Source: Leucobacter soli (GTDB lineage: Bacteria > Actinomycetota > Actinomycetes > Actinomycetales > Microbacteriaceae). Taken from it: a DNA stretch of 64,000 nucleotides. This document shows positions 2,917 through 18,882 of this stretch, in pieces. The stretch's first letter is position 1. The number at the start of each line of letters is the position of its first letter. The notes under the pieces are model-generated. The model was given only the letters and a program-made list of their open reading frames with translations, did not search any database and had not been told where the DNA came from. A program made the translations under genes and the position numbers. The DNA is taken from NCBI RefSeq assembly GCF_910593785.1, contig NZ_CAJVAP010000010.1, positions 1-64,000 on the forward strand, given 5' to 3'.

Positions 2917-3711
2917 CTACTTCTTCTTGGGGACCCGCACCTGGACGTTGGTGCTGCCGTTGTTCCGCTTCACCCGCTCGACCTCGAACAGCCCGACCGC
3001 CTCGATGAGGTCGCCGAGCTTCGCATAGCCCCAGTTCCGCGAGTCGAAGTCGGGGGACTGCTTCTGGATCGTCGATCCGACGCCCGAGAGGTGGGCCCAG
3101 CCGTCGTCGTCGGCGACGGCGGCGATCCCGGCGCGCAAGAGGTTCATGAGCCGGGTGTCCTGACGCAGATCCTTCGCGGGCAGCCGGGCCGGCGCCGATA
3201 CCGTCCCCTCCGCGTCCGATCCGGACTCCGCCCGCGCCATGGCCGGCTCGGGCGAATCGGTCGACGACGCGTCGACCTGCAGGGCATCGAAGTAGGTGAA
3301 GGTATCGCACGCGCTGACGAACGGCTTCGGCGTCTTCCGGTCGCCGAACCCGAAGACGCGTGCACCCGATTCACGCAGCCGGGCTGCGAGCCGCGTGAAA
3401 TCGCTGTCCGAGGAGACGAGCGCGAAGGCGTCGAGCTGATTCTGATGCAAGAGGTCCATGGCATCGATGATGAGCGCGCTGTCGGTCGCGTTCTTTCCCG
3501 TGGTGTACGAGAACTGCTGGATCGGCTGGATCGAGTGCTCGTTTGCGGCCGCCTTCCACCCGCGCAGCTGATCCGTCGTGAAGTCGCCGTACATGCGCCG
3601 CACCGAGGTGGTGCCGTATCGGGTCAGCTCGACGAGGATGTTGGCGATGTGCTCGGCGCTCACGTTGTCGGAATCGATCAGTACGGCGATGCGCGGAGAT
3701 TTCTCGGACAT
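2917..3711 (-). CDS. NYN-domain (LabA/DUF88-like) protein with C-terminal OST-HTH/LOTUS domain
   Basis: A 264-residue protein. Residues 6-150 form a PIN-like NYN domain: the acidic IAVLIDSDNVS at the N-terminus, IDAMDLL in the middle and LVSSDSDFTRLAARLRE give the conserved Asp cluster of metal-dependent RNases. After a linker (about 155-190), the region LMNLLRAGIAAVADDDGWAH to the end, with NWGYAKLGDLIEAVGLFEV, is an OST-HTH/LOTUS domain, an RNA-binding module. The start ATG at 3711 has a GGGGG stretch upstream; the much longer open frame to 5028 is an antisense shadow of the hydrolase. It is probably a cytoplasmic RNase-like protein, but its targets are unknown. Confidence 0.85.
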   Translation of the reverse strand: MSEKSPRIAVLIDSDNVSAEHIANILVELTRYGTTSVRRMYGDFTTDQLRGWKAAANEHSIQPIQQFSYTTGKNATDSALIIDAMDLLHQNQLDAFALVSSDSDFTRLAARLRESGARVFGFGDRKTPKPFVSACDTFTYFDALQVDASSTDSPEPAMARAESGSDAEGTVSAPARLPAKDLRQDTRLMNLLRAGIAAVADDDGWAHLSGVGSTIQKQSPDFDSRNWGYAKLGDLIEAVGLFEVERVKRNNGSTNVQVRVPKKK

Positions 3712-3870
3712 GCCCCCAGCATGACAGACTCGGCGTGGCGGCACACGGTCGAGTCGCCTCCGCGGGATCGAAACCGGTGCGGGCTCGGATCCGGTGCGGG
3801 ATCCGGATCCGGTGCAGAGAGCGGATCCGCCTCCGGTACCACTGCCGACGCACTCGCCGCTTCGTAGACT

Positions 3871-5016
3871 GTGAGCATGGGCACGGGTACGGACGGGGCG
3901 ATCGGGGACTGGCGGGAAGACGTCCTGGGCGAGGGCTTCGAATGCCGCGACCTCGCCCTCGGCGAGGACGAGCAGGGCCCGCTCGTCGCCACGCTCGTCC
4001 GGTCGGTCCCGGCGCGGCCGCGGCTCTGGGATCGGATCCTGCATCGGCGCCGGCCTCTCGAGGGCGTCGACGTCCTTTACGTCCACGGCTGGTCGGACTA
4101 CTTCTTCCAGCGCTGCCTGGCCGAGTTCTGGACGGATCGCGGCGCCCGCTTCTTCGCGCTCGATCTGCGCAAGTACGGGCGCAGCCTGCGCGAGGGTCAG
4201 ACTCCCGGCTACGTCGAGAACCTCGACGACTACGACATCGAGATCGGGCTCGCGGTGGAGGAGATACGGGGTGCGGGGGGCGATCGGCGCCTGGTGCTGT
4301 TCGGGCACTCGACGGGCGGACTGATCCTCAGCCTCTGGGCGGATCGTCACCGCGGAACCGCCGACGCCGTGGTGCTGAACAGCCCGTGGCTCGAACTGCA
4401 GGTCAGCGGTGCGGTGCGGCGCGCCCTGGCTCCGGTCGTGAACCTGCATGCGCGGCACAGCCCGCACGACCTGGCCCTGCCCCAGCTCGACCTCGGCTTC
4501 TACAAGCGGTCTCAGGGGATGGTCGCCGAGCCGGACGAGCAGGCCCTCGTGAACCTCGAGTGGCGCCCCGAGCATGCGCAGCCCGTGCGCGCGGGATGGC
4601 TGCGGGCGATCCTCGACGGCCACGCGCGGATCGAACGCGGCATCGACGTCGGCGCACCGGCATGCGTCCTGCTCTCTGCCCGATCGTCCTTCGGGATGAC
4701 GTGGCGGGAGGACATGCTGCGCGCGGATACCGTGCTCGAGGTCGAGGGCGTCGCCCGGGCGTCGCTGCGGCTCGGACCGACGGTCACGATCGAGCGCATC
4801 GACGGTGCCCTGCACGACGTGTTCCTCTCGGAGCGCCGGGCGCGCGCGTCCGCATATCGTCGGCTGGACTGCTGGGTCACCGGATGGGCGGCGGCGTACG
4901 GCGCGCACGGCGCCGGAGCCGACGAGGATCTCGCGCCGGACCAGGGTGCAGCCGAACCGGCCGCCGAGCGTGACGGCCGGGAGGTCGCCGACCCCGTGCG
5001 GGGTCCGATGCCCTAG
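3871..5016 (+). CDS. alpha/beta-hydrolase (serine aminopeptidase S33/lysophospholipase-like)
   Basis: A 381-residue alpha/beta-fold hydrolase. The nucleophile elbow GHSTGG places the catalytic serine at residue 147, an earlier HGW (LYVHGWSDYF) marks the oxyanion region, and H315 in DGALHDVFLS is the likely catalytic histidine. The overall pattern (FALDLRKYGRSL, the NLDDYDIEI motif) is that of monoacylglycerol-lipase/PldB-like proteins. The last 40 residues are low-complexity Ala/Glu/Asp-rich. A GTG at 3871 is used here; the ATG at 3877 is an equally possible start. The substrate is unknown, probably a carboxylic ester or acylglycerol in the cytoplasm. Confidence 0.85.
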   Translation: MSMGTGTDGAIGDWREDVLGEGFECRDLALGEDEQGPLVATLVRSVPARPRLWDRILHRRRPLEGVDVLYVHGWSDYFFQRCLAEFWTDRGARFFALDLRKYGRSLREGQTPGYVENLDDYDIEIGLAVEEIRGAGGDRRLVLFGHSTGGLILSLWADRHRGTADAVVLNSPWLELQVSGAVRRALAPVVNLHARHSPHDLALPQLDLGFYKRSQGMVAEPDEQALVNLEWRPEHAQPVRAGWLRAILDGHARIERGIDVGAPACVLLSARSSFGMTWREDMLRADTVLEVEGVARASLRLGPTVTIERIDGALHDVFLSERRARASAYRRLDCWVTGWAAAYGAHGAGADEDLAPDQGAAEPAAERDGREVADPVRGPMP

Positions 5017-5026
5017 GCTCGACACC

Positions 5027-5551
5027 ATGGATCTCAGGGTTGCCGCCTACGCCGTCGTCGAGCGTCGCGGCAAACTGCTGCTGACCCATTGGCGTCGCGG
5101 CCACCTGCACGGATGGACGCTGCCGGGCGGCGGACTCGAGAGCGGTGAGGATCCCCGCGACGCCGTCATCCGCGAAGTCCTCGAGGAGACCGGGCTCGAG
5201 GCGCGCATCGGCAAGCTCCTCGGGGTGGACTCGCGGGTGATGGTACGCGAGGAGGTTCCCGAGGGCACCGATCCGGAGCTGCACACGATCCGCATCGTCT
5301 ACCGCGCGACGGTGGCGGACGGTCCGCTGCGCCACGAGGTCGGCGGATCCTCCGACGAGGCGCGTTGGGTGCCGATACGCGAGATCCGCTCCCTGCGCAC
5401 GCTCTCGCTCGTTCAGACGGGGATGCGGATGGCCGGCCTCGACCAGCGCGCACGAGGCGGATCGAGCCGGGGAGGTTCGGATCGCGGCGGTTCCGGGCGC
5501 GGTGGGCGCCAGAGCCGAGGTCAGGGCGGACAGTCGAAGCCCCGCGAATAG
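5027..5551 (+). CDS. Nudix hydrolase with Gly/Arg-rich tail
   Basis: A 174-residue Nudix hydrolase. The Nudix box is complete, running from GGLESGEDPRDA to VIREVLEETGL (about residues 37-59), and should bind the catalytic divalent metal for cleavage of a nucleoside-diphosphate-linked substrate. After the fold (about residue 140) the protein ends in a low-complexity tail of RGG/RGS repeats, unusual for this family. The DNA for the last 16 codons and the stop lies inside a 52-bp sequence repeated exactly at 6596-6647, so the insert that follows sits precisely at the 3' end of this gene and duplicates it. Confidence 0.9.
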   Translation: MDLRVAAYAVVERRGKLLLTHWRRGHLHGWTLPGGGLESGEDPRDAVIREVLEETGLEARIGKLLGVDSRVMVREEVPEGTDPELHTIRIVYRATVADGPLRHEVGGSSDEARWVPIREIRSLRTLSLVQTGMRMAGLDQRARGGSSRGGSDRGGSGRGGRQSRGQGGQSKPRE

Positions 5552-5556
5552 CGGAG
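5505..5556. repeat. 52-bp direct repeat, left copy (3' end of Nudix gene)
   Basis: These 52 bp (GGCGCCAGAGCCGAGG … AGCGGAG) are identical to 6596-6647. The copy covers the last 16 codons and TAG stop of the Nudix gene. Bases just outside differ between the copies, so the match has sharp borders. Confidence 0.95.
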
Positions 5557-5785
5557 GTTTCACGCAATCAAAGCCCCCGGATCATTTAATTCAAGTTAAG
5601 GCCTGGAATTGGTAGCGATTTCGGGCAATTACTCGTTCCGGCGAAGCCCGGGTCCGATTTCGGGTCCGGATGCGGCGTTCGGGCTCGAGTTCTGGTTTTA
5701 ACACGAAACCCTATGTAGGCGTCTTGTGCTCAACTCAACGCAGCGCTGTCATGCGGCATCGAGCTTGCGCGCTTCTCCAAGGGCT

Positions 5786-6565
5786 TCACCCCTGTGCGAA
5801 GTACCTCCGCACACCATCCGCTTCTGCTTGGGTCAGATGCCAGTGCTCATGCTTCGGATGATCCGGATACTGGGAGCGGAGATACTCGCGGACGCGAAGC
5901 CCGGGTCTCGCCTCAGGGAGATGTCCAAGTTCTTCTGCGAGCTCCACCGGCGTAATCGTCTCGGCGTTGGCTTCGTTTCTCACCTTTCCCCAAAGATTCG
6001 GGAGTCCGTCGTGCCAGGGATGTCTTTCGGGGAGGCCTACTCGCGGGTCGGTCGCAAGATCTCGGAAGCGCGCAGGGAGCAGCACAGGTGCTTCCGTGGT
6101 TGGCAGGTCTAAGAGATCCCACCGGCCCTCGTAAGCTGCGAAGTCGCGTACGTAGACGCGGGATCGGTCGATACCTGCGGTGCGCTTGCCTTCGGGTATG
6201 CCTGGTTCGGTCAGCCAGTCCATGTGTGCGATCCAGGCAGCAGCCGCGACGTGCGCCCTGGGGATGACGTAGCCACGCAACGGAACTGTTGGATCCGGGT
6301 CGATGGCGGCCATCACGAACCATTCGTAATCATGGAGCGGTGGCTGCTGGGACTTCGTACCGAGTGGCCAGTTGATGTGTTGGCCGGTACCGCGAGCTGA
6401 CTTGACCTGTATCTCGATCTGGAGGCGTTCCCCGATGGTTTTTACGGCGAGGATGTCGGTGCGCTCGAGGCCGTCTCGGGTGAGGGCCGGTGCCCAGTCG
6501 CGGCGTGCGAGTTCGCTTGCGACCCAGTGCTCGCCGATCGTCTTTGTTTGTTTGGTGTCGACCAC
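5786..6565 (-). CDS. PD-(D/E)XK nuclease-like protein (DUF4365/Mrr-like N-terminus)
   Basis: A 259-residue protein unrelated to its neighbours. The N-terminus looks like the restriction-endonuclease/Holliday-resolvase fold: TIGEHWVASELARR gives Glu12 in the first helix, DGLERTDILAV gives Asp37, and LQIEIQVKSA supplies a Q53-V54-K55 strand, the QxK variant of (D/E)xK seen in Mrr- and DUF4365-type nucleases. The C-terminal half (about 100-259) is not recognised; it is rich in Trp, His and Pro (HPWHDGLPNLWGKV, HEHWHLTQAEA). GTG at 6565 is the start, with a weak ribosome site. It lies 30 bp from the right 52-bp repeat, so it may depend on transcription from the upstream minus-strand gene. A defence or DNA-processing role is plausible but unproven. 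Confidence 0.7.
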   Translation of the reverse strand: MVDTKQTKTIGEHWVASELARRDWAPALTRDGLERTDILAVKTIGERLQIEIQVKSARGTGQHINWPLGTKSQQPPLHDYEWFVMAAIDPDPTVPLRGYVIPRAHVAAAAWIAHMDWLTEPGIPEGKRTAGIDRSRVYVRDFAAYEGRWDLLDLPTTEAPVLLPARFRDLATDPRVGLPERHPWHDGLPNLWGKVRNEANAETITPVELAEELGHLPEARPGLRVREYLRSQYPDHPKHEHWHLTQAEADGVRRYFAQG

Positions 6566-6595
6566 GACGCCAGCCTAAGGGAACCCGGCAGGAGT

Positions 6596-6647
6596 GGCGC
6601 CAGAGCCGAGGTCAGGGCGGACAGTCGAAGCCCCGCGAATAGCGGAG
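6596..6647. repeat. 52-bp direct repeat, right copy
   Basis: Exact copy of 5505-5556, in the same orientation, including the Nudix TAG stop. It ends the 1.1-kb insert; beyond it the sequence leads directly into the terminator-like hairpin of the gene at 6703-7200. Confidence 0.95.
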
Positions 6648-6662
6648 CCCGCGAATACACGC

Positions 6663-6688
6663 GCGCCCCGCGAGTCTTCGCAGGGCGC
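6663..6688 (-). terminator. GC-rich terminator-like hairpin after the YtxH-like gene
   Basis: An 11-bp stem (GCGCCCCGCGA with TCGCAGGGCGC, one G-T pair) and a 4-base loop begin 15 bp after the stop of the minus-strand gene at 6703. There is no run of T, so termination may be partial, which would allow read-through into the nuclease gene. Confidence 0.45.
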
Positions 6689-6702
6689 CGCGCGTCAGCC
6701 GG

Positions 6703-7200
6703 TCAGTCCTCGGGAGCGACCCAGAGCTCGTCGTCGCTGCGGAAGGCCTGGTAGAGCGCGTAGCCGACTGCTGCGGCAGCGGCGACGCCGACGCCGATGG
6801 CGAGGAAACGACCGAAGCCGCCCTTCTTCTCCGGCTGGATCAGGCCGCGCTGCTCGCCGAAGCTGCGCACCTGACGCGCCGCGTCCCGATTCTCGATCCG
6901 CTCCAGGCTGCGCACGGTGCCGAGCAGTGCGCTCGCGACGAGCGGGGCTGCCATCAGGCGCACCTGGTCGGCGGACCGGCGCGCCCGCGCGATACCCCGA
7001 TCGATGCCGGGGCGCACGTTGTCGATGACCTCGTTCACCCGAGGGGCGACGAACTCGGCGTTCAGCTGCTTCGCCTGGCGCCCGGCCTCCTGCGCGACGC
7101 TGCCGGCGTGGCCGAGCACTTCGCGCTGCTGCTCGAGCAGATCCTCGGCCTGCGCCCGCAGACGGTTCAGTTCGCGGCGGCGCTTGCGTGAGAGTGACAT
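6703..7200 (-). CDS. hypothetical YtxH-like membrane-anchored protein
   Basis: A 165-residue protein. Residues 1-100 are a long charged, helical, probably coiled-coil stretch ([20 protein letters not shown] and on). A single membrane segment near residues 134-154 ([20 protein letters not shown]) is followed by a short acidic tail. The layout resembles YtxH-like or apolipoprotein-like small proteins often found beside the cyclophilin gene in Microbacteriaceae; no function is known. The ATG at 7200 is chosen because GGAGG lies 5 bases upstream; the frame remains open upstream without a better start. It is divergent from the cyclophilin gene. Confidence 0.75.
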
Positions 7201-7412
7201 GGAGACCTCCATTGCGCTGGGTGGGCTTACCTCCACGCTACACCGAGCCGGTGACGGCCGCCCAGGCGGCTGTGCGTATTCACAGTCCGGCGCGGGCGGG
7301 CCTTCGACGCCTTCGCAGTCGATGCGTTCGAGATTCCGGCACCCTCACGGGCCGGCGCACTCGCGTTCCCGTGCAGCCGGGATGGAGGTATCGACCGCGT
7401 AGACTGTTCCGC

Positions 7413-7943
7413 ATGACTCTCCACTCGGCGGTTGCGACCATTCACACCAATCACGGCGACATCGTGGTGAACCTCTTCGGCGATCACGCGCCCAAGACGG
7501 TGAAGAACTTCGTCGATCTGGCCCAGAAGGGCTTCTACGACGGCGTCATCTTCCACCGCATCATCCAGGACTTCATGATCCAGGGCGGCGACCCCACCGG
7601 CACCGGCACCGGCGGCCCCGGCTACACCTTCGACGACGAGATCCACCCCGAGCTCGTCTTCGACCACCCGTACCAGCTCGCGATGGCCAATGCGGGCAAG
7701 CGCCCGGATCTGACCGGTCGCCTGGCGGGCACCAACGGCTCCCAGTTCTTCATCACGACGATGGCCCCGAACTGGCTGAACGGCAACCACACCATCTTCG
7801 GCGAGGTCGCGGATGCCGACTCGAAGGCCGTGGTCGACGCGATCGCAGCCGTGCCGGTCGGCCCGATGGACCGGCCGCTCGAGGACGTCGTGATGACCGG
7901 CATCGAGGTCGCCGGAACGGCGGCCGCCGGCGCCGAGGCCTAG
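7413..7943 (+). CDS. ppiA: peptidyl-prolyl cis-trans isomerase, cyclophilin type
   Basis: A 176-residue cytoplasmic cyclophilin (no signal peptide). It catalyses cis-trans isomerisation of Xaa-Pro bonds. Family motifs are continuous: [58 protein letters not shown] and [11 protein letters not shown], with the active-site Arg in FHRII and the Phe/Gln pair in SQFFIT. Its place directly before rhomboid and crgA is the conserved dnaA-proximal order in actinobacteria. The rhomboid gene starts 6 bp after its stop, so the two are likely one transcript. Confidence 0.97.
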
Positions 7944-7948
7944 CGAGA

Positions 7949-8893
7949 GTGTCGCAGGGCGGCTCCGGCCCGCAGTTCGGCGAGCGCGCCGAGCACGGGC
8001 CGAACGACGTCTGCTACCGGCACCCGGGCACCCCGAGCTTCACACTGTGCCAGCGCTGCGGGCGCACCATCTGCGCGCAGTGCCAGGTCGTGTCCGCAGT
8101 CGGCGTGCTCTGCCCCGAGTGCGTGCGCGAGGCGAAGCCCGCGACGAAGCAGCGCGTCGGCCGCTCGGCACGCGCGACCGGCCGCCGGGTCGCCGCGAGC
8201 GAGACGCCGGTGACCTACGGCATCATGATTATCTGCGCGGTGGTCTTCGTCCTGCAGTGGCTGAGCGCGACGTTCTCCGACAACGGGGTGACCGCGGCGC
8301 TGTGGTACGCCCCCGCCTATTCGCTGCCGCCGGACATGGTGCCGGGAGCGTTGTTCGGCTTCGAGCCGTGGCGCATGATCACGGCGATGTTCACCCACTC
8401 GACGGGGTTCATCTTCCACATCCTCTTCAACATGTACGCGCTCTGGCTCTTCGGGCGCAATCTCGAGCAGATGCTCGGCCGGGCCTGGTTCCTCGTCCTC
8501 TACCTCTTCGCGGGACTGGGCGGATCGCTGGGCGTCATGATCTGGGGCTACTTCGATGTCACCTCGATCCTGGTACCCACCGTCGGCGCCTCGGGCGCGA
8601 TCTTCGGTGTGCTGGCAGCGACGCTGGTCGGGTACCGCGCCGCCAACGTGAACATCACCTCACTGGCCGTGCTCATCGCGATCAACTTCGGCATCGGCTT
8701 CCTGCCGGGTGCGGCGATCTCGTGGCAGGCGCACCTCGGCGGCATGATCGTGGGCGCCGCGGCCATGGGACTGCTCGTCGCCTCGCGCGGGCCGCGCAGG
8801 CGGCAGGGGCGGATCCTCGGAATGGTCGGGCTCGGCGTGCTGCTCGTGGTGCTCAGCGGCCTCTACTTCGTGATCTCGCCGCTCACGTTCTGA
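7949..8893 (+). CDS. rhomboid-family intramembrane serine protease with N-terminal zinc-finger-like domain
   Basis: A 314-residue protein. The cytosolic N-terminus carries a B-box-like cysteine cluster (CYRHPGTPSFTLCQRCGRTI, then CAQC and CPEC). Six or so membrane segments follow from about residue 88. The catalytic serine is in GASGAIFG and the catalytic histidine in AHLGGMIVG; the HxxxN motif of rhomboids appears as HILFN. It cleaves membrane-protein substrates within the bilayer; no substrate is known for this subfamily. The GTG start at 7949 lies just after the cyclophilin stop. Confidence 0.93.
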   Translation: MSQGGSGPQFGERAEHGPNDVCYRHPGTPSFTLCQRCGRTICAQCQVVSAVGVLCPECVREAKPATKQRVGRSARATGRRVAASETPVTYGIMIICAVVFVLQWLSATFSDNGVTAALWYAPAYSLPPDMVPGALFGFEPWRMITAMFTHSTGFIFHILFNMYALWLFGRNLEQMLGRAWFLVLYLFAGLGGSLGVMIWGYFDVTSILVPTVGASGAIFGVLAATLVGYRAANVNITSLAVLIAINFGIGFLPGAAISWQAHLGGMIVGAAAMGLLVASRGPRRRQGRILGMVGLGVLLVVLSGLYFVISPLTF

Positions 8894-8894
8894 G

Positions 8895-9066
8895 CGGCTC
8901 CGCGGCAGAACGCGTCGCGTTCTCCCTACGCGGCCCGGGGACCGCGCAGTGGCGCAGCGCGGCTCCGCAAGAGAACGCTATGCGTTCTCCTTATGCGGCC
9001 CGGGGACTGCGCTGTGGCGCAGCGCGACGCCGCGAAAGAACGCTATGCGTTCTCCTTACGCGGCTC
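8895..9066. repeat. three tandem 65-bp repeats with a palindromic core
   Basis: Between the convergent rhomboid and crgA genes, a unit recurs with an exact 65-bp period. Each unit carries the palindrome AGAACGC-N3-GCGTTCT (8907-8923, 8972-8988, 9037-9053), followed by TCC(C/T)TA(C/T)GCGG. The second and third cores are identical (AGAACGCTATGCGTTCT); the first has CGCGTCGCG in the middle. The third unit is truncated after TACGCGG. No gene reads through. The stems could act as a bidirectional terminator or a protein-binding array. Confidence 0.85.
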
Positions 9067-9072
9067 GCGTAG

Positions 9073-9081
9073 TTATCCACA
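9073..9081 (+). promoter_or_regulatory. perfect DnaA box
   Basis: TTATCCACA matches the consensus DnaA box exactly and lies just after the last 65-bp repeat, followed by inverted ATTCAT/ATGAAT half-sites. A single box may titrate DnaA or regulate crgA rather than mark the origin; dnaA itself is outside the window. Confidence 0.5.
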
Positions 9082-9120
9082 GATTCATTCACATCTGGGG
9101 ATGAATCACACCGGTGTAAT

Positions 9121-9390
9121 TCACTTCCACCACGGTGTCATCATGAAGCCGACCAGCACCAGGCCGAAGCCGACGAAGATATTCGCCTGCCCGAGCTGGG
9201 GGATCGGTAGTTCCGCACCGCCGCTGGTGACGTAGTAGAGCACGATCCAGATCAGGCCGAGCAGCATGAAGCCGAACATCAGCGGCTTGAACCACACCGG
9301 ATTCGGCGCGTCCTTCCGCAGCTCCGCCGCGTTCGCGCGATCGACCGACGTGCTCTTGGAGTTGCTCACTTCTTTACCAGCTCGTGCCAT
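9121..9390 (-). CDS. crgA: cell division protein CrgA
   Basis: An 89-residue integral membrane protein. A short charged N-terminus (MARAGKEVSNSKS) and the NPVWFKPLMFGFMLLGLIWI segment lead into two membrane helices and the conserved C-terminus LVGFMMTPWWK. CrgA in mycobacteria and Streptomyces binds FtsZ/FtsI partners and couples septation to peptidoglycan synthesis. Chromosomal position opposite srtE and near pknB is conserved. The ATG at 9390 begins the recognisable protein; the longer upstream reading is an srtE shadow. Its 3' end faces the rhomboid gene across the 65-bp repeats. Confidence 0.95.
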   Translation of the reverse strand: MARAGKEVSNSKSTSVDRANAAELRKDAPNPVWFKPLMFGFMLLGLIWIVLYYVTSGGAELPIPQLGQANIFVGFGLVLVGFMMTPWWK

Positions 9391-9445
9391 GTGAACGATT
9401 CTACCCGGATCCCGCCTCCCAGCCGGGTTCCCTAGAATTGAGCGC

Positions 9446-10291
9446 ATGAACGAACTGCCGGTCGCGACGCCGGGCACGGTGCCGGGCGCGTTGCCGCCGC
9501 CCGCGTCCAGCGGTTCGCGCGCGCCAGGAGGGAGCGGCCGGAACGACCGGCCCCGCCGCCGCCGCAAGCGGCTCAGCCCGCTCACGGTGATCGGCGAACT
9601 GCTCGTGGTCGGCGGCGTGGCCGTGCTCGGCTTCTTCGGCTGGCAGTACGCGATGACGCAGATCGTGGTGCCCGCCCAGCAGCAGGCGCTCGCCGCGCAG
9701 GACTCCGCGCGCTGGGCCGCCGCGTCCCAGGCCGAGGAACCCTGGGACGGGGAGGTGCCGGTCACGGCCGCGCACGCGCCCGGCGAGGTCTTCGGCCTGC
9801 TGCACATCCCGGCGATTGGGGAGCGCTTCACCTATCGCGTCGCGGAGGGCACCGACCCGGAGACCGTGCTGAACGTCTCGGACAAGGGCATCGGCCGCTA
9901 CGAGACGACGCAGATGCCCGGCGACTACGGCAACCTCGGGCTCGCGGCCCACCGATCGGGCCCGTGGATCACCCCGTTCCGCGAGGTCATGGAACTGCGC
10001 GTCGGCGATCCGATCTATCTCGAGACCGAAGACGGCTGGTACACCTACCGGTTCCGGTCGCTCGAGTACGTGCTCCCCTCGGCCTACGACGTGCTCAACC
10101 CGTTCCCCAGGATCGACGTCGACCCGGCCGAGGATCGCCTCATGACCCTGACCACCTGCCACCCCAAGAACGGCGGTACCGAGGAGCGGGCCATCGCCTA
10201 CGCCGTGTTCGACCGCTTCCAGCCCCGCAGCGCGGGCGCTCCCGCCGAACTCGCGGCGATCGACGGCGAGACCGGGGAGGCGGCGGTCTGA
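9446..10291 (+). CDS. srtE: class E sortase
   Basis: A 281-residue membrane-anchored transpeptidase. A Pro/Arg-rich cytosolic N-terminus is followed by one membrane segment (about 47-66). The sortase beta-barrel carries His169 (LAAHRSG), Cys238 in the signature TLTTCHP and a downstream Arg248 (EERAIAY). Class E enzymes replace class A as housekeeping sortases in high-GC actinobacteria and join LAXTG-type surface proteins to the wall. The TGA stop shares a base with the ATG of the next small gene, indicating coupled translation. Confidence 0.93.
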   Translation: MNELPVATPGTVPGALPPPASSGSRAPGGSGRNDRPRRRRKRLSPLTVIGELLVVGGVAVLGFFGWQYAMTQIVVPAQQQALAAQDSARWAAASQAEEPWDGEVPVTAAHAPGEVFGLLHIPAIGERFTYRVAEGTDPETVLNVSDKGIGRYETTQMPGDYGNLGLAAHRSGPWITPFREVMELRVGDPIYLETEDGWYTYRFRSLEYVLPSAYDVLNPFPRIDVDPAEDRLMTLTTCHPKNGGTEERAIAYAVFDRFQPRSAGAPAELAAIDGETGEAAV

Positions 10292-16178: not shown

Positions 16179-17566
16179 GCGCGGATCACCAGCTTCGGTC
16201 GGTTGCGCACCGAGTTCGAGAGGCGCAGCAGCAGCGCGACGATGATCCAGTTCGAGACGAGGGAGGAGCCGCCCGCCGCGAGGAACGGCGTGGTCAGGCC
16301 GGTCAGGGGGATGACGCGGGTGACGCCGCCGACGACGATGAAGACCTGCAGCGCGATCGCGAAGCCGAGGCCGGCCGCGAGCAGCTTGCCGAAGTCGTCC
16401 TGCCCGGCGAAGCCGATGCGGAGCGCGCGGCCCACGAGCACGAGGTAGGCGGCCAGGATGACGAACAGCCCGATCAGCCCGAGCTCCTCGCCGAGGCTCG
16501 GGATGATGTAGTCGCTCCGCGCCTCCGGGGTGTCGCCCGGGAAGCCCTGCCCCAGCCCCGTGCCGGTCATGCCGCCGTTCGCCATGCCGAAGAGCCCCTG
16601 CAGCAGCTGGAAGCTGCCGCCGCGCGGGTCGGCGAACGGGTCGAGCCAGTTCACGAAGCGCACGTTCACGTACGAGAGCGTCTGGCTCGCGACGATGCCG
16701 CCGGCGAGGAACAGGCCGAGACCGAGGACCACCCAGCCGACGCGTCCCGTCGCCAGGTAAAGCATTGAGAGGAAGAGGCCGAAGTAGAGGAGCGACGTGC
16801 CGAGATCGCGCTGGAAGACGAGCACGCCCATCGCGATCAGCCAGAAGGTGATGAGCGGCCCGAGGTCGCGGCCGCGCGGGAACCGGATGCCGAGGAACTT
16901 CTTGCCCACCATCGACAGCGCGTCGCGGTTGCGCACGAGATAGCCGGCGAAGAAGATCGCCAGCAGGATCTTGGCGATCTCACCGGGCTGGAACGAGAAC
17001 TCGCCGAACCGCACCCACACCCGCGCGCCCTGGATCGGTGCGAAGAACATGGGCAGCAGGAGCAGGATCAGCGCGCTGAGGCCGAGCAGGTAGGTGTAGC
17101 GAAAGAGCACCAGATGGTTGCGCAGCACGGCGATCACCACGATCGCGGCGACCAGGGCGATGGTCGACCACACGAGCTGCCGCACGGAGGTCGACCCCCA
17201 CCCGATCGCGCCCGCATCGAGGTCGATGCGGTAGATCATCGCCACGCCGATCGAGTTGAGCATCGTCGCGATCGGCATGATGAGCGGATCCGCGTCGGGC
17301 GCGCGGAAGCGCACCGCGATGTGCAGCCCGATCACGGCGACGGCGAACAGCGCGCCCGCGGGGAGCAGCGCAGTGGTCGGGCTGCCGACGACGGTGAGGT
17401 CGATGATCACGACGGCGGCCGCGCCGATCGCGAGGGCGAAGAGGAGCAGGGAGAGCTCCAGGCCGCGGAGCAGGCGCGGGGCGCGGATCGCGGTGATCCG
17501 CTGCAGGACCGTCTCGCTCGTACGGGTGCGGTCGAAGCTGCGCGGCTCGGTCGGGTTCGCGGTCAT
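16175..17566 (-). CDS. rodA: RodA/FtsW/SpoVE-family SEDS peptidoglycan glycosyltransferase
   Basis: A 463-residue polytopic protein of the SEDS family, which polymerises lipid II into glycan strands with a cognate class B PBP (here PbpA). Signatures include FQRDLGTSLLYFGLFLSMLY and the C-terminal PSLGEELGLIGLF followed by VIPLTGLTTPFLAAGGSSLV. The start ATG at 17566 overlaps the pstP stop. The longer upstream reading is a pstP shadow. Confidence 0.95.
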   Translation of the reverse strand: MTANPTEPRSFDRTRTSETVLQRITAIRAPRLLRGLELSLLLFALAIGAAAVVIIDLTVVGSPTTALLPAGALFAVAVIGLHIAVRFRAPDADPLIMPIATMLNSIGVAMIYRIDLDAGAIGWGSTSVRQLVWSTIALVAAIVVIAVLRNHLVLFRYTYLLGLSALILLLLPMFFAPIQGARVWVRFGEFSFQPGEIAKILLAIFFAGYLVRNRDALSMVGKKFLGIRFPRGRDLGPLITFWLIAMGVLVFQRDLGTSLLYFGLFLSMLYLATGRVGWVVLGLGLFLAGGIVASQTLSYVNVRFVNWLDPFADPRGGSFQLLQGLFGMANGGMTGTGLGQGFPGDTPEARSDYIIPSLGEELGLIGLFVILAAYLVLVGRALRIGFAGQDDFGKLLAAGLGFAIALQVFIVVGGVTRVIPLTGLTTPFLAAGGSSLVSNWIIVALLLRLSNSVRNRPKLVIRA

Positions 17567-18882
17567 TCGTGCACCCCCAGCCGGGTCACGATGTCGCGGG
17601 CCTCCTCGAGGGAGCCTGCGCTGAGCGTGCGCTGGACCTGCCGCTGCTCGTTGCCGTCGAGGGCGGAGAGCGGGATCTCGGTGTCCTCGGCGATGGAGCT
17701 CAGCGAGATCGAACCGATGTTCTGCTGCACGCCTCGGAAGATGATCACGGTCTCGCCGTCGGTGCCGACGAAGTAGCGCGTCTGGGTCCACTGGTAGCCG
17801 AGCGTCAGCGCGCCCGCGATGGCGGCGATGATCGCGAGGAGAGCGAGGGCGCCGAGGATCCGGCGGCGACGGTTGCGCCGTTTCGTCTCGGCGATCAGCT
17901 CCTTCAGATACTCGTCGACGCGCGGCTCGAAGTGGCTCTCGGCCACGGGCTGCGCGCGGCGGCTGATCCGGCGGCGGCTGAGCAGGCGGGTGCGGGCGGT
18001 GCTCACGGGCTCGCCGCCCGGAACCTCGTTGGCGGCGGACCCGGCGAAGCGGGGGCCGGCCGGCTCGTCGGCCTGATCCGGTTCCGCCAGCGTCTCGACC
18101 AGGACCACGGTGACGTTGTCCGGGGCGCCATGGGCGAGGCTCTTGTCGATGAGCGAGTCGACTGCGCCCTGCAGAGAGGTGCGGCGTCGGAGGATCCGCT
18201 CTATGTCCTCGTCCTCGACGTAGCCGCAGAGGCCGTCGGAGCAGAGCAGCCAGACGTCGCCGGGCCGTGTCTCGAGGACGGCGGTATCGATCTCGGGCTG
18301 CGACTCGACGTCGCCGAGCACGCGCATCAGCACTGAGCGGCGGGGGTGCGTCTTCGCCTCCTCCTCGGTGATGCGCCCGCTGTCGACCAGGCGCTGCACG
18401 AAGGTGTGGTCCTTCGTGATCTGCGTGAAGGCGCCGTCGCGCAGCAGGTAGAGGCGGGAGTCGCCGATGTGGGCGAGGGCGAGCCGATCCTCGACCGTGA
18501 TGAAACCGGAGAACGTGGTGCCCATGCCCGCGAGCTCCGGCCGATCGCCGACGGTGGAGCGCAGCATCCGGTTGGTCTGCAGCAGCTGCTTGCGCAGCAG
18601 CTCGGCCGCGGACTTCGGATCCTCGAGCGCCGGGTTCGCGGGGCCGCCGGCCGGATCCTCCGAAGCGCGAGGCTCCCCGGGTCCGGTGTCGTGCGGTGGC
18701 GCCAGGGGGGCATCCACCCGCGCCATCGCCTGCGCGGTCAGAGCGGAGGCGACGTCGCCTCCGGCATGGCCGCCCATGCCGTCTGCGACGAGGAACAACC
18801 GGTACCCGGCGTAGCCGGAATCCTGATTGTTCGACCGCACCATCCCGACATGGGAGCCGATGGCGCTCGCGTACCCGCTCAT
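17563..18882 (-). CDS. pstP: PP2C-family Ser/Thr phosphatase PstP
   Basis: A 439-residue protein. The N-terminal PP2C domain (about 1-260) has the metal-binding motifs NNQDSGYAG, VADGMGGHAGGD, AHIGDSRLYLL, LCSDGL and GAPDNVTVVLVE. A basic linker leads to one membrane segment (about 345-363) and a short external domain. It reverses phosphorylation by PknA and PknB. An insertion rich in Pro/Gly/Glu (about 55-90) interrupts the catalytic domain compared with shorter homologues. It overlaps rodA by 4 bp and starts 4 bp after fhaB ends. Confidence 0.95.
   Translation of the reverse strand: MSGYASAIGSHVGMVRSNNQDSGYAGYRLFLVADGMGGHAGGDVASALTAQAMARVDAPLAPPHDTGPGEPRASEDPAGGPANPALEDPKSAAELLRKQLLQTNRMLRSTVGDRPELAGMGTTFSGFITVEDRLALAHIGDSRLYLLRDGAFTQITKDHTFVQRLVDSGRITEEEAKTHPRRSVLMRVLGDVESQPEIDTAVLETRPGDVWLLCSDGLCGYVEDEDIERILRRRTSLQGAVDSLIDKSLAHGAPDNVTVVLVETLAEPDQADEPAGPRFAGSAANEVPGGEPVSTARTRLLSRRRISRRAQPVAESHFEPRVDEYLKELIAETKRRNRRRRILGALALLAIIAAIAGALTLGYQWTQTRYFVGTDGETVIIFRGVQQNIGSISLSSIAEDTEIPLSALDGNEQRQVQRTLSAGSLEEARDIVTRLGVHE

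Follow-up and report, generated by a model that had tools for sequence, protein, structure and literature searches.

The stretch of Leucobacter soli DNA analysed here (the window, 64,000 nucleotides of contig NZ_CAJVAP010000010.1) contains a Nudix hydrolase gene (5027-5551, plus strand; PF00293, E 1.1e-21) whose 3' end, the landing site of an insert, is present twice. An exact direct repeat of 52 bp occupies positions 5505-5556 and 6596-6647 on the plus strand, with a start-to-start spacing of 1091, and each of the two identical copies is composed of the final 44 coding bases of the Nudix gene, its stop codon (5549-5551 in the left copy) and five further bases. Both copies have sharp borders, the four bases that precede them being GGTG and GAGT and the first ones that follow GTTTCACG and CCCGCGAA. 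Between the copies lies an insert of 1,039 bp (5557-6595) with one gene (5786-6565, minus strand), which starts with GTG and codes, in 259 codons, for a nuclease-like protein with a fused tail: residues 1-192 (5990-6565, minus strand) form a predicted PD-(D/E)XK-type nuclease domain and residues 200-257 (5795-5968, minus strand) a separate small domain. A -10-like box, TAGGCT (6572-6577, minus strand), stands directly before the start codon, and the 229 bp between the nuclease stop codon and the left repeat (5557-5785) have no recognised gene. The next conserved gene (6703-7236, minus strand), labelled YtxH-like in the first-pass annotation of this DNA, has no Pfam match above the cut-off. That annotation had already described the repeats, their sharp borders, the Nudix stop codon within each and a 1.1-kb unit lacking an integrase, all of which the present analysis reproduces.

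The GC content of the insert (0.59-0.63 in 400-bp windows covering 5500-6499) is lower than that of its flanks (0.64-0.74 in 400-bp windows from 3500-5499 and 6700-8899), although the windows at 8900-9499, outside the insert, are also low (0.625). A scan of 464 kb of the 2.87-Mb genome (the window, a further 40 kb of its contig and 40-kb portions of each of nine other contigs), restricted to pairs that lie in the same stretch at distances of 100-20,000 bp, gave the 52-bp pair as the sole exact direct repeat of at least 30 bp that, read by eye, did not correspond to tRNA genes or repeated coding domains. Contig 9 of the same genome contains, at about 17309-18631, an exact direct repeat of 522 bp with a spacing of 801, which probably reflects a domain that recurs within a large protein. 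No inverted repeat has its arms at the insert ends, and the single gene of the insert has no integrase match, no transposase beside it and neither a methyltransferase nor an Argonaute partner within the unit. No Rfam family, and hence no structured RNA or intron, matches 5000-7300 at the gathering score, and the nuclease is encoded by a free-standing ORF. Hairpin formation within the 52 bp is ordinary (z -1.1). Compared with the other loci of the family, the 5557-5785 stretch shows no convincing similarity (best E 0.26), and its sole terminator-like site (5659-5689) is no more than expected by chance.

The Nudix protein is matched in all 54 genomes of the genus, with a clear ortholog in 52 of the 53 other genomes; the remaining one, 74% complete, contains only a distant Nudix match. 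The next conserved gene follows beyond the gap in 52 loci, and the distance from the Nudix stop codon to the stop codon of that gene is -4 to 246 bp in 51 of the 52 relatives. When the insert and one repeat copy are subtracted, the gap of the window is 60 bp, within this usual range, and its joined flanks align with those of one relative (G041) on both sides of a variable stretch. The nuclease gene is absent after the Nudix gene in all 52 relatives, and the insert DNA matches two of the 54 genus genomes: its own, where it matches once, and that of Leucobacter salsicius (a genome identical to the record of that species over the 3.6 kb compared), in which a stretch of about 514 bp, 70% identical to the query, lies at a different place. 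The insert of the window is an insertion, with a duplicated landing site, that is absent from the relatives. Comparison of this interval across Leucobacter, proposed in the first-pass annotation, shows that the gene and both repeats are not a fixed ancestral arrangement, and the low GC together with the short gaps agrees with its view of a foreign-looking single-gene unit. Its suggestion of a hotspot is weak: one of the 52 other genomes (G046, gap of 1,415 bp) does have a different gene in the gap, a 429-codon ORF (contig 14, reverse complement about 8577-9866) that looks transporter-like by eye, but no direct repeats surround it. The C-terminal tails of the Nudix proteins vary in length and sequence across the species of the genus (52 relatives), and the 52 bp are thus private to this genome among those compared.

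Residues 1-192 belong to a family whose proteins are about 190-200 residues long. In a search of 398 Microbacteriaceae genomes, 15 (that of the window included) have a match at E below 1e-50, the remaining matches being to the tail alone, to fragments or to a distant relative; in a draw at the order level, seven of 396 genomes (again including that of the window) have any match. A scan of contigs gave 46 loci across Actinomycetota, two fragments and two repeats of others among them, in hosts ranging from Leucobacter to Streptomyces, Corynebacterium, Propionibacterium, Micromonospora and Bifidobacterium. None of the models in Pfam, NCBIfam or PADLOC is matched by the window protein, 43 family members gave nothing beyond stray weak single matches in Pfam and PADLOC, and no published description of the family was found among the open-licence PMC papers listed. 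A phage origin was rejected, since no relative occurs in the phage or viral collections searched: 50,697 phage records contain no match at E 1e-5, and none of the 25 viral-contig stretches that matched a pattern encodes a relative. Among plasmids, matches were seen on a Frondihabitans plasmid (residues 1-189, 55%) and, for the tail only, on an Arthrobacter plasmid; the 450-kb plasmid of Frondihabitans sucicola carries the family gene twice (L137 and L147). In the tree, the Corynebacterium flavescens sequence groups with that of Agrococcus with high support (98/85). The two Microbacterium testaceum copies differ with a dN of 0.043 and a dS of 0.50, so that the gene is kept under selection there and its function retained; L107 and L108 are identical in this comparison, and the window and L. 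salsicius copies gave no usable dS.

The Glu12/Asp37/QVK pattern, recognised beforehand in the single protein, extends to the whole family: G11, E12, D37, Q53, V54 and K55 are invariant in 43 aligned sequences, which provides the conserved acidic residue and the (D/E/Q)-x-K motif that characterise PD-(D/E)XK enzymes. An AlphaFold model built with the 43 sequences has a mean pLDDT of 87.4 and a pTM of 0.74, the tail being less sure (block means 58-79). Its best solved structural match in VIA-align 2 is I-Ssp6803I (PDB 2OST), a homing endonuclease (Z 12.3, rmsd 2.5 over 121 residues), followed by SPARDA (Z 10.0), Hjc (Z 9.9) and restriction enzymes solved with methylated DNA (near 9.0). Foldseek gave no match in the PDB at E 0.001 or less (best E 1.7e-3), and for this reason the fold call relies on the aligner, the topology and the invariant E12/D37/Q53/K55; against BFVD, five viral models reached E 0.001 or below, none of them usefully named. 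Profile matches in the PDB were weak, fell on unrelated proteins (such as APOBEC3G and phosphodiesterase 7A; best E 0.005) and were treated as chance. On the model, residues 1-192 are confidently predicted to have a PD-(D/E)XK-type core with an E12/D37/(Q)xK active-site pattern, the fold that the first reading of the sequence had anticipated. The "unrecognised C-terminal half" of that reading does lie beyond the motif, but is composed of the rest of the 192-residue nuclease domain plus the fused tail.

This tail, about residues 200-257 of the window protein, is separate from the nuclease domain. Similar stretches occur elsewhere in Microbacteriaceae (L047-L061) as whole ORFs of 56-68 codons or behind other sequences, and a chorismate mutase-like protein carries a tail 72% identical to that of the window. 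In 61 loci searched, no other member of the nuclease family was found to have the tail; tblastn alignments of L117 and L121 ran on to residue 259, but both proteins end near residue 193 and no tail was found there. One stand-alone copy has matches below the threshold (best E 0.004) that allow the guess that the tail might be a helix-turn-helix domain.

Homologues of the nuclease gene sit alone at unrelated places, and their flanks differ between the compared loci except for M. testaceum and a few others; no insertion site shared among homologues was seen apart from that of the M. testaceum pair. Nineteen locus pairs were compared, in 14 of which the DNA match is confined to about the gene, but ten of these 14 are only 69-79% identical, a level at which the flanks would not align anyway, so that four pairs are informative: Cryobacterium glucosi and C. 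arcticum (88%, from -53 to +572), two Streptomyces-type pairs (89%, from -42 to +616, and 92%, from -27 to +619) and Corynebacterium flavescens and Agrococcus (82%, from -18 to +587, plus one 88-bp match close by). In these four, the similarity covers the gene and 18-53 bp upstream. Searches of the partner genomes found no counterpart of the flanks of C. glucosi or of one Streptomyces locus, and these pairs therefore show a shared gene, not an empty site. The other five pairs match beyond the gene, indicating that it also moves in larger pieces: Propionibacterium and Gulosibacter have 2.7 kb in common at 90%, Agrococcus and Gulosibacter 1.4 kb at 77%, 31B and Gulosibacter another 1.3-kb segment, the two M. 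testaceum loci represent a single site, and for M. lacus and BR1 the DNA is one and the same. Judged by these sequence comparisons, the nuclease gene has evidently been transferred repeatedly. Many members, read by eye and unscored, have a -10-like box (for example TAGCCT, TAGGCT or TATGCT) a few bases before the start codon, as the window gene does, and several others lack it; boxes so near the start suggest that the family genes may be transcribed as leaderless messengers.

No steady partner gene was seen in the families and models listed for 147 of the 155 flanking proteins picked around the homologues (proteins over 700 residues were not picked). Among the 25 of 92 families listed, the commonest were a resolvase helix-turn-helix domain (four proteins) and flavin oxidoreductase, Mu-type transposase and integrase core domains (three each), and phage integrase was found in two proteins; among the 25 of 98 defence models listed, BrxD, DrmD and SngB matched a single flanking protein each, as did two Type II methyltransferase models (one protein each of the 147). 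A defence role of the nuclease, as the first-pass annotation had raised, is possible. In Leucobacter salsicius (L104, about 6410-9011) the family gene stands, by eye, between UmuD-like and short UmuC-like ORFs, with a phage integrase (PF00589) beyond, and in Corynebacterium flavescens (L120:7000-8200) a CRISPR-like array is located about 6 kb from the family gene.

Long duplications were also observed at other loci of the family. In Arthrobacter sp. zg-Y238 the gene has the 3' end of a flavin oxidoreductase gene on one side and a duplicate of this end on the other, the repeat being 159 bp long and 96% identical, 97 bp of it exact. The matched block contains five differing codons, all five changes being synonymous, and four more differing codons are at or before the start of the block. 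The neighbouring oxidoreductase is absent from all 41 loci around CofD relatives, and the long oxidoreductase DNA matches are at most 74% identical. In Microbacterium testaceum StLB037 DE0422 an exact repeat of 26 bp takes in the beginning of the following gene together with its start codon; in M. testaceum NBRC 12675 the nuclease gene occupies the same position, and the left copy of the repeat has decayed. This case is weaker, as paralogous genes in the same orientation lie nearby and the 26 bp may be a paralog remnant; the search for an empty site covered two genomes of the genus, both of another group. In a Cellulomonas MAG (L140:6731-11551) a 67-nt repeat, 94% identical and overlapping the 3' end of tRNA-Val, encloses 4.75 kb that include the gene, which may be an ordinary tRNA integration; no integrase was noticed among the ORFs listed for this locus. 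The duplicated sequences are thus different in the window, Arthrobacter and Microbacterium: a Nudix 3' end, an oxidoreductase 3' end and a gene start.

With flanking repeats defined by one exact 20-mer that occurs on either side of a gene, within 380 bp of it, they were found around three of 43 family genes and two of 440 other genes in the same loci (Fisher p 0.006), and around two of 42 (p 0.04) when the window, which had been chosen for its repeat, is left out. The count excludes four loci that are duplicates or fragments (L108, L146, L147 and L149), and the control genes do not include ORFs over 1,500 bp, near the locus ends or near the family gene; genes were called by a simple codon-bias picker and not by a gene finder. 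The two control hits are an ORF in the CRISPR-like array of L120 and an NYN-like gene with long repeats (L125); without the former, p is 0.0025, and 0.021 if the window is dropped too. The enrichment of flanking repeats around family genes rests on few cases, and 40 of the 43 members have none.

Several known systems resemble this arrangement in part. Insertion with long target duplication was reportedly described for restriction-modification genes by Nobusato et al. 2000 and Furuta et al. 2010. The portions available of four papers (PMC1643837, PMC3874152, PMC3031569, PMC4978471) likewise report insertion of such genes with long and variable target duplications, in the order of 100 bp in one of them (PMC3874152). 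The family described here agrees with that account in having a gene between long direct repeats of the target (52, 159 and 26 bp), without a recombinase of its own, and, in the window, an insert absent from relatives; it differs in that the window unit is a solitary nuclease gene, one gene per unit with no methylase partner seen, in Actinomycetota and from a protein family without a name. The unit has neither the integrase and conserved attachment site of a site-specific integrative element nor the terminal inverted repeats and transposase of an insertion sequence or transposon. I-Ssp6803I, the nearest structure to the modelled nuclease, is described in the available text as residing in a group I intron within a tRNA gene (PMC1995217, PMC12205087), whereas the window nuclease has neither an intron (or other Rfam family) nor an allelic site; with these two features lacking, it is at most homing-like. 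SPARDA DREN and the archaeal Hjc resolvases are of the same predicted fold class (Z about 10), and the D, Q-x-K arrangement is common to the window nuclease and SPARDA DREN, whose active site is given in the accessible part of one paper as D41, Q60 and K62 (PMC12205087), yet the identity to SPARDA DREN and Hjc in the aligned rows is 11-15% and the window insert has no Argonaute partner. Phage free-standing homing endonucleases, as far as the accessible text goes, are also lone nuclease genes between other genes with complicated target changes, but have an HNH fold and belong to phage genomes (PMC3706429), whereas the window family is absent from the phage and viral collections searched.

The explanation that we favour, with moderate confidence, is that a solitary gene for a PD-(D/E)XK-type nuclease entered behind the Nudix gene as a unit of one gene, leaving a 52-bp duplication of the landing site, breaks made by the nuclease itself being the weaker step. 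The nuclease gene would enter with its own minimal promoter, and a break at the landing site, repaired by copying or template switching, would generate the duplication; repair of this kind is suggested by ends without inverted repeats, an insert without a recombinase and a genome without a Ku match. The exact, sharp-bordered repeat, the short gap in 51 of 52 relatives and the unconserved target argue for this explanation, as do the Arthrobacter and Microbacterium structures with their unrelated targets, the excess of flanking repeats, the confinement of similarity to the gene in the four informative pairs, the selection on the M. testaceum gene and the published long, variable duplications of restriction-modification genes, as far as these were seen. 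In the weaker step, the nuclease itself would make such breaks and the gene would spread in a homing-like but ectopic manner. The likeness of its predicted fold to a homing endonuclease, its solitary state and the recurrence of the structures point in this direction, and to the proposal that the nuclease drives its own insertion we give a little under even odds. Several observations count against the favoured explanation: with 40 of 43 members lacking a flanking repeat, such repeats are either lost fast or not left by the usual route; the purely synonymous changes between the Arthrobacter copies suggest two alleles and not a copy made on insertion; the Microbacterium repeat could come from paralogs; allelic homing would place homologues at one shared site, which was seen only for the M. 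testaceum pair; and one case of long duplication is described, in the part of the paper available, as occurring in a site-specific manner (PMC4978471).

The insertion and its duplication would equally be expected if the gene were a passenger, a nuclease of defence type that ordinary recombination or repair brought in, with an accidental duplication and the nuclease idle in its own insertion; this alternative, which denies only the nuclease-driven last step, is doubtful. A defence passenger and a self-driven gene appear about as likely as each other. Its attraction lies in the single neighbours of homologues that match BrxD, DrmD and SngB, in the resolvase, transposase or integrase domains among the neighbours and in the related folds, which are those of defence nucleases (SPARDA and methyl-dependent restriction enzymes), while the gene-limited transfer in the informative pairs and the excess of flanking repeats call for some specific route. 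Alternatively, DNA from a related strain, in which the gene already stood beside the end of the flanking gene, could have paired there and been joined illegitimately on the other side. The synonymous codon differences in the Arthrobacter block fit such one-sided homology, and co-conversion of flanks is known in homing, according to the part available of one paper (PMC3943268); in the window, however, the copies are identical and none of the 52 relatives has the gene after Nudix, hence no donor is known, and we regard this origin as unlikely there. In Arthrobacter, where the copies suggest that the second one came from another allele, one-sided homology may have contributed.

The reading put forward in the first-pass annotation was site-specific integration, in which a recombinase supplied in trans would use the 52 bp as its attachment site. 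The duplication of a gene 3' end with its stop codon speaks for it, and so does the Cellulomonas segment at the tRNA-Val 3' end. A site-specific recombinase is expected to use a conserved target, however, and the Nudix tail varies in the genus, the other members duplicate other sequences, one of which is a gene start, and the insert has no integrase; we consider this reading improbable. Capture of a fragment by end-joining at a staggered break could give duplications of any length; as this genome, 98.7% complete, has no Ku match, Ku-dependent capture was rejected and end-joining capture in general is very improbable. Least probable of all is an assembly error, which a draft genome of 67 contigs might invite, since the stretch matches once in the genome and independent genomes show similar structures.

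The pattern of long target duplication by restriction-type genes dates from 2000, and in the portions of the literature at hand no worked-out mechanism was found. The present family provides one-gene cases with a predicted active site and with neither methylase nor integrase, turning the question of self-insertion into an experiment on a single protein, and it draws attention to a widespread actinobacterial nuclease family of which the window protein has escaped the Pfam, NCBIfam and PADLOC models. A bolder and rather doubtful reading is that of a self-mobilising single-gene element, in which one nuclease, about 192 residues long and expressed from some 20-50 bp of promoter, would cut a new chromosomal site, its own gene would be copied in, and duplications of 26 to about 160 bp would result, with no need of transposase, integrase, intron, RNA or methylase. 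Such an element, if real, would rank with the smallest mobile units that code for a protein, and could account for the long duplications of the target seen with restriction-type genes. For the cell, the possible effects are selfish spread of the gene, cutting of incoming DNA, or both. Outside this family, the NYN-like gene (so named by eye) at L125:3670-5100 lies between long direct repeats that resemble the start of a NERD-like gene, and is perhaps another one-gene insertion.
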